64,000 bases of DNA, taken from NCBI RefSeq assembly GCF_020042345.1, contig NZ_CP083387.1:2294001-2358000 (forward strand), in the 5' to 3' direction. The notes under the pieces were generated by a model. The model saw only the letters and a program-made list of their open reading frames with translations, had not been told where the DNA came from and searched no databases. Source of the stretch: Arachidicoccus terrestris. Its GTDB lineage: Bacteria; Bacteroidota; Bacteroidia; Chitinophagales; Chitinophagaceae. Of the stretch, positions 14,828 through 16,741 are shown piece after piece. The stretch's first letter is position 1. The number at the start of each line of letters is the position of its first letter. The translations under genes and the position numbers were made by a program.

Positions 14828-14901
14828 CGGGATGTAGCGCAGCCCGGTAGCGCACACGTCTGGGGGGCGTGGGGTCGCAGGTTCAAATCCTGTCATCCCG
14901 A
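14828..14901 (+). tRNA. tRNA-Pro (anticodon GGG)
   Basis: A complete cloverleaf of 74 nt: acceptor CGGGATG pairs with CATCCCG, D-arm GCGC...GCGC, anticodon arm CACGT-CTGGGGG-GCGTG with anticodon GGG, T-arm GCAGG-TTCAAAT-CCTGT, discriminator A. CCA is not encoded. It reads proline codons CCC and CCU. The accessory island begins immediately downstream, but I found no integrase and no convincing att duplication. Confidence 0.95.
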
Positions 14902-14924
14902 CTGAGAAGCCTATAAAGGCGGTC

Positions 14925-14958
14925 AAAACCCCTCTAATCATATGATTAGAGGGGTTTT
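14925..14958. repeat. Perfect 34-bp palindrome, left copy; possible tRNA-Pro terminator
   Basis: AAAACCCCTCTAATCA, a central TA, then the exact complement: a perfect 34-bp palindrome 23 bp after the tRNA. An identical copy is at 16708-16741. Each copy directly abuts one inverted-repeat end of the IS4-type element. Its form, with A and T runs outside a GC stem, suits a bidirectional transcription terminator. Confidence 0.9.
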
Positions 14959-14990
14959 CTCTAGTTTGGCCTTTTTCTAGATAAGGCAAA

Positions 14991-15028
14991 AAAAAATAGC
15001 AATTTAGTTGGTTATATTGCTATTTTTT
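14991..15028 (+). terminator. Hairpin at the inner left end of the IS4-type element
   Basis: AAAAAATAGCAA pairs with TTGCTATTTTTT (12-bp perfect stem, 14-nt loop). Placed between the element end and its first gene, it would stop read-through from outside, such as from the tRNA promoter, from driving transposase, a common safeguard in insertion sequences. Confidence 0.55.
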
Positions 15029-15059
15029 GTGATCTTTATATCTAGTTAAACGACTAGAT

Positions 15060-15269
15060 ATGGGATATCCAACTAAAATTCAGATAATAAAAAGAGCAAA
15101 GAGTGAGCAATGGTATGTAAATTTTCCAGCTGCCGTGGCTCAGGCAATAGAATTTAAGCAAGGAGAGATTGTTGAGTGGGTGATAGATGATCACCAGCGC
15201 CTAGTACTTCAGCGTAGTGATGAATCCGTAAAAGATCTTAAAAAAAAACTCCCCAAAAAGAAGGAGTAG
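15060..15269 (+). CDS. AbrB/SpoVT-like small protein, first frame of the IS4-type element
   Basis: A 69-residue protein whose first 50 residues (IQIIKRAKSEQWYVNFPAAV...FKQGEIVEWVID) resemble the swapped-hairpin AbrB/MazE DNA-binding fold; the last 20 are lysine-rich. It ends just past a run of nine A residues (15240-15248) where the -1 frame opens into the transposase. It may therefore be the DNA-binding N-terminal part of the transposase as well as a free protein that binds the element's ends. The fold assignment rests on pattern recognition only. Confidence 0.65.
   Translation: MGYPTKIQIIKRAKSEQWYVNFPAAVAQAIEFKQGEIVEWVIDDHQRLVLQRSDESVKDLKKKLPKKKE
15237..15269 (+). promoter_or_regulatory. 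Candidate -1 ribosomal frameshift site joining AbrB-like frame to transposase
   Basis: The zero frame reads CTT AAA AAA AAA CTC CCC and stops at TAG 15267-15269. The transposase frame is -1 relative to it, opens just after the stop at 15239, and encodes plausible transposase sequence (FNELFDRCITAFKQSRTFQR) long before its only permissible start, TTG 15347. Nine consecutive A residues make a slippery site like those of IS1 and IS3 elements. Confidence 0.6.
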
Positions 15270-15346
15270 TTGCTTGCTTTAATGAATTATTCGATAGATG
15301 TATAACAGCTTTCAAGCAATCCAGAACTTTTCAGAGAGCTCGCGAT

Positions 15347-16696
15347 TTGTCTCACGGAGTTATTTCATGTATTGGACGTTGTACGATAACAGGGATGTTA
15401 ACAGCAAGTGGGAATCAGTTTAAGGACTGGAGTGCGGCCTATCGAATATTTAAGGGTGAAAGAATGGATATGAATGCAATTTTTTCTGAAGTTAGAAAGG
15501 AGGTCGTGTATCAAAATAGAAAGAAAGGCGATTTTATTTATGCACACATGGACGATACCCTGTTAAGGAAGAGAGGGAAGAAAATATCAGGGACCGGATG
15601 GCTAAGGGATCCACTTGGCCCCCCGTTTTGTAATAATTTCATTTGGGGCCAACGATTTGTTCAACTCTCTTTATCGCTCATTGAAAAAGACCTCTGCGGT
15701 CCATCAAGGGCCATCCCGGTAGACTTCAAACATTGTCCTCCCACCAAGAAGCCGTCAAAAAATGCGACCGACCAGGAAGTAGCACTATACCGGGAAAGAC
15801 AGAAGAAAGAAAAAATGAGCGAAGTAGGCGTCCAGCGTGTCATAGCCTTGAGAAAGTGCTTAGATGACGATGGCTATAAAAATAAAAAACTTATCCTGAG
15901 CGTGGACGGCAGTTACACGAATGGAACTGTTTTAAGGCAACTTCCAGAAAATGTAGAACTCATTGGCCGCATAAGGAAGGATTCAAAAATTTATGCTCTA
16001 CCAGAAGAGCAACAATCAGGAAAGGGACGTAAACGATATTATGGAGAAGAGCTCCCCACACCAGAACAAATCCGACAAAGCGATGACTATCCTTATCAGC
16101 AGGTTGAAGCATGGGCTGCAGGAAAGATGCGTACATTCAATGTGAAAGTTGTAAAAGATATACGCTGGCGAAAATCAGGTAAGAGAGACTTAATGCTGAT
16201 CATTATCAGGCCAGTTTCCTATAGGCTCACCAAAAAATCAAAATTACTGTATCGTGCTCCCGCCTATTTAATATCAACCAATCAAGAGATAGATATTTTC
16301 CTGCAGGTCCAGGCTTATATTAGAAGATGGGAGATAGAAGTCGGCTTTAGAGATCAGAAAACATTAATGGGATGTGGTCAGGCACAAATCCGGGAAAAAA
16401 CTGCGGTAGCAAAAGTTCCGGCATTTGTATCCGCATGTTATGCTATGATGATACTGGCATCGCACAAACAGCAGCAGTCCAAATCAAAAAAACAACTCCC
16501 TGGGCCTAAATGGTACGTAAATATTAAAAAGCAAAGGGTTACTACTGGTGATATTATAAATAGATGTAGAGTTGAAAATTGGGCGCAAAGTGTAAATATT
16601 AATTTTTCCGACTTCGTGAACATTGAAAAAAAATTATCGAAGTGCGAAAAAATGGCAAATCCCTCATTTTCCTCCTTCTTTTATGCCAGAAATTAG
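15347..16696 (+). CDS. DDE transposase of the IS4-type element
   Basis: Catalyses excision and insertion of the element. The IS4 signature Y-x2-R-x3-E-x6-K is exact in YIRRWEIEVGFRDQK (near 16315-16360); earlier catalytic aspartates are likely in AHMDDTLL and LSVDGSYT. The coordinates start at TTG 15347, the only allowed start codon in the frame, but coding-like sequence reaches back to 15242 with no ATG, GTG or TTG, so the real protein is probably a fusion with the AbrB-like frame by -1 frameshifting, of about 540 residues. The C-terminus is rich in lysine and serine. The frame is intact, so the copy may be active. Confidence 0.88.
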   Translation: MSHGVISCIGRCTITGMLTASGNQFKDWSAAYRIFKGERMDMNAIFSEVRKEVVYQNRKKGDFIYAHMDDTLLRKRGKKISGTGWLRDPLGPPFCNNFIWGQRFVQLSLSLIEKDLCGPSRAIPVDFKHCPPTKKPSKNATDQEVALYRERQKKEKMSEVGVQRVIALRKCLDDDGYKNKKLILSVDGSYTNGTVLRQLPENVELIGRIRKDSKIYALPEEQQSGKGRKRYYGEELPTPEQIRQSDDYPYQQVEAWAAGKMRTFNVKVVKDIRWRKSGKRDLMLIIIRPVSYRLTKKSKLLYRAPAYLISTNQEIDIFLQVQAYIRRWEIEVGFRDQKTLMGCGQAQIREKTAVAKVPAFVSACYAMMILASHKQQQSKSKKQLPGPKWYVNIKKQRVTTGDIINRCRVENWAQSVNINFSDFVNIEKKLSKCEKMANPSFSSFFYARN

Positions 16697-16707
16697 CCAA
16701 ACTAAAG

Positions 16708-16741
16708 AAAACCCCTCTAATCATATGATTAGAGGGGTTTT
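16708..16741. repeat. Perfect 34-bp palindrome, right copy
   Basis: Identical base for base to 14925-14958, abutting the right inverted repeat of the IS4-type element. It continues into GCTTTTTTT, so on the plus strand this copy looks like a complete intrinsic terminator and may preserve the original downstream flank of tRNA-Pro. Confidence 0.9.

Follow-up and report, generated by a model that had tools for sequence, protein, structure and literature searches.

The 64,000-nucleotide stretch of the Arachidicoccus terrestris genome analysed here (the window) contains a transposase frame that overlaps a small AbrB-like frame and opens well upstream of its first canonical start codon, which raises the question of how such an enzyme is made and to what kind of mobile element it belongs. 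A first-pass annotation had proposed an AbrB-transposase fusion produced by -1 frameshifting on nine A residues, and had placed it at positions 15060-16696. Our overall reading, to which we give a probability of about 0.75, is that of an IS701-like element in which slippage on the A-run would give a fusion transposase and insertion would duplicate a target of hairpin length. The original coordinates omit the element ends; the full insertion sequence occupies positions 14959-16707 of the plus strand (1749 bp) and is found in nine copies in its own 4.9-Mb genome, identical at 1749/1749 positions. The left terminal inverted repeat (14959-14978, plus strand) starts with CTCTAGTTTGGC and forms an inverted-repeat pair with the right one (16688-16707, minus strand), and this terminal sequence sets the element boundary independently of the flanking repeat. 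Judged by eye, the ends are colinear with those of AbrB-less outgroups (CTCGACTTTG), and their fit to the published IS701 consensus ---YACT is a loose one only. On its sequence, the window element is a recently active IS701-like insertion sequence. Searches of viral contigs, and of plasmids with the AbrB ORF as query, gave nothing or no new members, and none were added by 298 order-level genomes outside the genus or by the family of G975 past the known matches.

The transposase frame (15242-16696, plus strand) is open over 484 aa and IS701_3-like, and its first ATG, GTG or TTG is the TTG at 15347-15349 (plus strand), both the opening position and the start codon being present in the sequence as the first-pass annotation had described them. 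When curated families were compared, the best match was NCBIfam NF049999 (IS701_3), at 180.3 bits against a cut-off of 170, which was passed by five of the six sequences scanned (the window, L016, L017, L030 and L031, relatives being given by locus number), with L010 missing it at 168.8 versus 170. The enzyme had initially been called IS4-type. The YREK residues of that type are present in the alignment (Y359, R362, E366 and K373) and the predicted fold is Tn5-like, but the nearest family is IS701_3, and IS4 proper is excluded by profiles far below their cut-offs (IS4_2, 31 versus 152 bits; IS4_4, 29.1 versus 250; IS4_1, 21.3 versus 115). Additionally, the candidate catalytic residues D104 (15551), D222 (15905) and E366 (16337) are invariant in 11/11 aligned rows, AbrB-less outgroups included. 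The predicted model has a mean pLDDT of 68.2 and matches Tn5 transposase with a best E of 2.8e-9, a TM of about 0.5 and an rmsd of 9.3; by profile and predicted model, the transposase is IS701-like and in the group with a Tn5-like fold. Transposase-like sequence does extend upstream of the TTG, as had been claimed: the NF049999 match begins at residue 19, ahead of codon 36 (the TTG), the stretch is conserved in relatives, and the model places helices at residues 9-18 and 27-42, with a mean pLDDT of 88-89 over residues 11-30. On these grounds the 35 residues preceding the TTG look coding, and a protein started at the TTG would probably lack part of the fold, because much helix lies upstream of codon 36.

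The AbrB/MazE-like ORF (15060-15269, plus strand) encodes 69 aa between an ATG at 15060 and a stop at 15269. Its label as AbrB is tentative: the match to Pfam MazE_antitoxin (E=2.5e-4, 21.4 bits) lies below the gathering cut-off of 24.7, and the same match recurs in 5/5 homologues, below the cut-off every time. Against the PDB, the AbrB alignment gave weak matches to AbrB chains (E 0.5-0.6), and the AF2 model of the ORF is poor (mean pLDDT 55.9). The three top PDB matches were short ubiquitin-ligase peptides, which were taken as chance. Identity of the AbrB frame to the window is 100% in L010, 88% in L016, 93% in L017, 63% in L030 and 62% in L031, and that of the transposase 87, 80, 67, 44-45 and 42%, respectively. 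Between the window and L010, the AbrB frame differs at 19 of 177 nt, and 18 of these differences fall at third positions (dN 0, dS 0.96); between the window and L017 there are 35 differences, 31 of them at third positions. Judging from these substitutions, purifying selection is acting on the AbrB frame.

Upon examining the junction, we find that the AbrB frame crosses an A9 run (15240-15248, plus strand) in a register that fits the net -1 relation between the two frames of the window, which agrees with the initial description. The AbrB frame, the overlap and the A-run are all kept in Bacteroidota relatives down to 42% transposase identity (L010, L016, L017, L030 and L031), and the run begins at nucleotide 181 of the AbrB ORF in all 23 loci compared except L018, in which the AbrB frame is broken. 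The run is A9 in the nine own copies and in L010, L016, L030, L031, L035, L036, L039, L040 and L041/L043 (one copy), and A8 in L017, L034 and L018; L039 and L040 carry a stop inside the transposase. Among decayed copies, L019 has TT followed by A7, and in L032 an A9 remains with an AbrB that is no longer recognisable. L092 (G1194), a diverged, AbrB-bearing copy cut at a contig end, keeps the -1 overlap with only A6 (GAAGAAAAAACG). Conservation of the two-frame layout and of the A-run, which the first-pass annotation had marked for checking, therefore extends to 42-44% transposase identity, but with A8 in L017 and L034 and A6 in L092. The A8 core is the longest invariant block in the junction alignment. 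In five lineages that are kin to each other (the window, L010, L016, L030 and L031), the three Lys codons are all AAA, AAA making up 52-73% of their Lys codons, and unaided survival of the three would not be expected because synonymous sites are so diverged. A frame error in one assembled copy is excluded, since the nine copies and independent relatives are concordant.

The start codon of the transposase frame is not conserved. L010 and L016 lack one throughout their first 51 codons and have a CTG at the position of the window TTG, whereas L030 has a GTG that overlaps the AbrB stop and L031 an ATG 81 nt into the frame. In AbrB-less outgroups, the single ORF begins near the position of the window junction. 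The TTG, GTG and ATG could be taken to mean that there is no fusion, with translation of the transposase beginning independently, at TTG 15347 or by re-initiation close to the AbrB stop, and AbrB acting as a separate repressor. We consider this improbable, as L010 and L016 have no start to use, the positions of the starts vary by lineage, family-matching sequence lies upstream of them, and the longest invariant block of the junction is the A8 core. Among the relatives we found neither a single-frame AbrB-transposase homologue, a form the first-pass annotation had suggested looking for, nor an intact copy with A7 or A10, in which the frames would be fused in the DNA. With the layout and the A-run conserved and the start codon not, an AbrB-transposase fusion by recoding, as first proposed, is the best reading of the two frames.

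A slip on the A-run, with an A gained or lost in the mRNA or with a ribosomal -1 step, would then give an AbrB-transposase fusion that is the working transposase, and without a slip the product would be a short AbrB protein, which may act as a repressor at its own promoter. How the slip occurs is less clear-cut; at barely better than even odds, we favour joining of the frames by RNA polymerase slippage. Polymerase slippage that ends in A7 or A10 can serve A8 and A9 sites alike, and a ribosomal -1 slip can serve A9 and the A6 of L092 but not A8, which needs +1 (or -2); of the two, transcriptional slippage has a slight advantage. Against the overall reading of a slip on the A-run, of either kind, stand the A8 of L017 and L034, which is wrong for -1, and the A6 of L092. 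The alternative, in which it is the ribosome that slips by programmed -1 frameshifting on A_AAA_AAA as in IS1/IS3-type elements, would suit the net -1 relation in the window, L010, L016, L030 and L031 types as well as the A6 of L092, which is short for polymerase slippage and enough for -1 on A_AAA. We regard it as a real but less probable route, because the A8 of L017 and L034 would call for +1 and polymerase slippage reads both A8 and A9, because downstream structure is not conserved, and because slippage at A9 in IS elements, A8 homologues included, has been published (PMC1088944). A search for conserved stimulatory RNA structure downstream came back negative, most z values being near 0 and one L017 window reaching -2.4.

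Polymerase slippage at such sites has precedents, since overlapping ORFs joined by transcriptional slippage at conserved A8-A9 runs are described for IS elements (Baranov 2005, PMC1088944), and the window element likewise has overlapping frames at a conserved A-run. A word search of the text of that article did not return IS4 or IS630, and no AbrB case was seen in the parts covered. Frameshifting is named for IS1, IS3, IS5 and IS630 in Atkins 2016 (PMC5009743), the searched part of which mentions neither IS4, IS701 nor AbrB. With the orfA-orfB arrangement of IS1 and IS3, the window element would share an upstream DNA-binding product, possibly a regulator when alone, that is fused to the catalytic part by a shift, although these belong to other families. 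No earlier report of such an element was found in the open-access literature, which was covered mostly as titles and the starts of abstracts.

We also examined the leader of the element. A terminator-like hairpin lies just inside the left end (14991-15028, plus strand) and, in the window and seven relatives, retains 10-13 of its 13 pairs when G-T is allowed as a pair; at several of these pairs both partners show changes. Directly 5' of the AbrB ATG is an operator-like inverted repeat, ATCTAGT-N6-ACTAGAT (15040-15059, plus strand), a candidate autoregulation site, whose right arm is kept in 8/8 aligned sequences (the window and seven relatives) and whose left arm is altered in L018, L019 and L031. 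Together, the two features may protect the element from transcription entering from outside and allow AbrB to repress itself, and the AbrB ORF may also yield a short stand-alone protein.

Next, we investigated the insertion sites. The window copy stands downstream of a tRNA-Pro(ggg) gene (14828-14902, plus strand, called by ARAGORN), the terminator-like hairpin of which is the insertion target, and it is flanked by two copies of a 34-bp perfect palindrome, at 14925-14958 on the left and 16708-16741 on the right. All nine own copies lie between direct repeats of 24-44 bp that change from one of the eight sites to the next, and every such repeat forms one complete hairpin, end to end. The hairpins do not belong to the element, since they vary between sites and the element does not. 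Insertions are therefore bracketed by two copies of one complete hairpin. Across the 13 repeats scored (the eight own sites, L010, L016, L017, L030 and L036, with L039 left out), 13/13 are hairpins with the stem base at most 1 nt from both ends and lengths of 18-44 bp; the L016 repeat was cut from 27 to 24 bp under the rule that the element end is 12 nt. For each of 12 repeats, 12 or fewer of 20,000 random stretches were as good; for the remaining one, the 18-bp repeat of L036, 296 of 20,000 were, the random background being the window's DNA for the foreign genomes too. When the loci of five relatives were checked, the tRNA-Pro was found at a minimum of 73/75 bases in three (L052, L053 and L056), which are from other species of the genus and have a terminator-like hairpin after the tRNA and no IS in 160 bases.

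Upon widening the comparison to the clade, we counted 28 copies (the nine own copies, L010, L016-L020, L023, L030-L036, L039-L042 and L092), of which five show no AbrB (L020, L023, L033 and L042, which are 3' fragments, and the decayed L032) and eight have one end only (L018, L019, L020, L023, L032, L033, L042 and L092). L018 and L023 share an assembly but have different hairpins and were therefore entered as two copies; the short decayed fragment L015 was left out of the end counts, and repeats of counted copies were also left out, among them L011-L014, L021, L022, L024-L029, L037, L038 and L043, and further L072-L075, L083, L084, L086-L091, L093 and L094. A hairpin is present at every recognisable end in 27/28 copies. 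Among the 48 recognisable ends scored, the two ends of one copy not being independent, 46 score above 0, 40 at least 5 and 38 at least 6, while random places reach at least 5 in 99 of 10,000 and at least 6 in 35 of 10,000. The weakest ends, with scores of 2-4, are one each of L031, L033, L034 and L035 and both of L036; scores of this size turn up at 549 to 240 of 10,000 random places, and any one of these hairpins is weak when taken by itself. The two hairpins of L040 differ from each other and those of L034 are similar, so that neither copy has an exact duplication. The sole copy without flanking hairpins, L041/L043 (G900), sits at a 6-bp repeat, ATCTAT, accounts for both zero scores and has its transposase in two pieces.

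Target duplications are usually short, with a length fixed by enzyme geometry, and elements of the IS701 family have a single transposase ORF. Lengths of 1400-1550 bp and duplications of 4 bp are given for this family in the consulted parts of De Palmenaer et al. (2008, PMC2266710). The window element agrees with it in a transposase above the IS701_3 cut-off, in the DDE residues and in ends colinear, by eye, with AbrB-less relatives, and differs in being 1749 bp long, in its two overlapping frames with AbrB and in hairpin duplications of 18-44 bp. A short duplication of the IS701 type (4 bp; 5 bp in outgroups) is absent at the eight own sites, and in the clade only L041 has a short one. IS1634 and IS1549, according to titles cited in PMC2266710, insert with direct repeats that are long or both long and variable in length, whereas a table of the same article gives duplications of 5-6 bp for the IS1634 family; the likeness to the window element is drawn from those titles only, no hairpin link was seen in them, and the window transposase scores only 13.9 bits against the IS1634 model.

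On plain duplex DNA, a fixed transpososome would not easily make staggers that range from 18 to 44 bp. We propose that the target hairpin is extruded as a cruciform, that joining would take place at the hairpin feet, a step that we infer, and that repair after joining would copy the hairpin arms; as repair copies the arms, the target duplication would equal the hairpin, whatever its length. That the target's own fold sets the duplication length implies a transposase that reads DNA structure and is able to act at a four-way junction. Imperfect stems with 4-5 nt loops extrude poorly from duplex DNA, and imperfect stems and 4-5 nt loops are found among these targets, several of which are terminator-like. 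The hairpin could for this reason be single-stranded when attacked, on the lagging strand at a replication fork, instead of a double cruciform; we find this unlikely, since duplication of the whole hairpin requires both strands to be joined at opposite feet and a single-stranded target explains only one joining. Attack on a cruciform, which we prefer, has a counterpart on paper. Members of the IS1272/IS1182 family carry out inverted-repeat-replacing transposition, in which a new IS1272 insertion replaces the hairpin and leaves no duplication (PMC5678879), and the relevant part of the IS1272 paper of Wan et al., 2017, draws a 'pathway b', by 5'-foot attack, as a hypothesis only. Like IS1272, the window element has as its target an inverted repeat known by structure and not by sequence, but it keeps the hairpin on both sides, duplicated, which matches the hypothetical 'pathway b', and it would thus supply a case from nature for a pathway that had been sketched for IS1272 as no more than a possibility.

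Does AbrB have a part in this choice of target? The AbrB-less 1514-bp element of Rhizobiaceae, which has similar ends, shows 5-bp duplications (e.g. CTTAG) in 7/10 copies, some read by eye, with mismatched flanks in the remaining 3/10, and AbrB-less copies in two Bacteroidota genomes show 5-bp duplications in 4/4. Among 28 ends of 14 AbrB-less copies, 25 score 0, 3 score 3 or 4 and none scores 5 or more. In the tree, which is midpoint-rooted and has long branches between the groups, the AbrB-bearing lineage, together with L073, which has lost AbrB, falls on one side of a branch with 100/99 support, and because the AbrB lineage is all on that side, the association of AbrB with hairpins is a single evolutionary contrast. 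AbrB as the cause of hairpin targeting is accordingly a correlation from one clade. Tentatively, and at rather less than an even chance, capture of an AbrB domain, joined by recoding, may have changed an IS701 transposase with 5-bp duplications into an enzyme guided by DNA structure, whose targets are four-way junctions at the feet of hairpins and whose insertions duplicate each hairpin in full. If that is true, insertion at a terminator leaves a terminator on both sides of the element, and the element offers a testable case of a captured DNA-binding domain altering target choice. It is nearly an even bet, falling a little short, that AbrB is irrelevant to target choice and only regulates, with hairpin targeting a property of the transposase lineage. 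The operator-like inverted repeat 5' of the AbrB ATG, the dependence of the contrast on one clade (100/99) and the presence of L041, of the same lineage, at a 6-bp repeat without a hairpin all speak for such a purely regulatory role, but the 5-bp duplications of the AbrB-less relatives (in Rhizobiaceae and in the two Bacteroidota genomes alike) and the lack of comparable hairpins at AbrB-less ends speak against it.

Finally, we looked at where the own-genome sites lie. Six of the eight are at most 40 nt from where the tRNA or an ORF of 80 aa or longer ends (L001, L004, L006, L007, L008 and L009), and insertion at a terminator with the terminator duplicated would be gentle on the host. At L005 (C1 416455-417906), the element interrupts a 432-aa ORF with thioredoxin domains at a 24-bp palindrome inside it, and because this copy sits inside such an ORF, it is the inverted repeat itself, not termination, that seems to be the target. 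In G900, L031 and L035 are oppositely oriented and have their left and right hairpins swapped, the mark of an inversion by recombination between them. The own tandem site lies about 440 nt from such an end. There, L002 and L003 (C1 2103114-2106349) stand in the same orientation with one hairpin in common, in the order hairpin-IS-hairpin-IS-hairpin, and this tandem arose either by a second insertion into a duplicated hairpin or by recombination between repeats.
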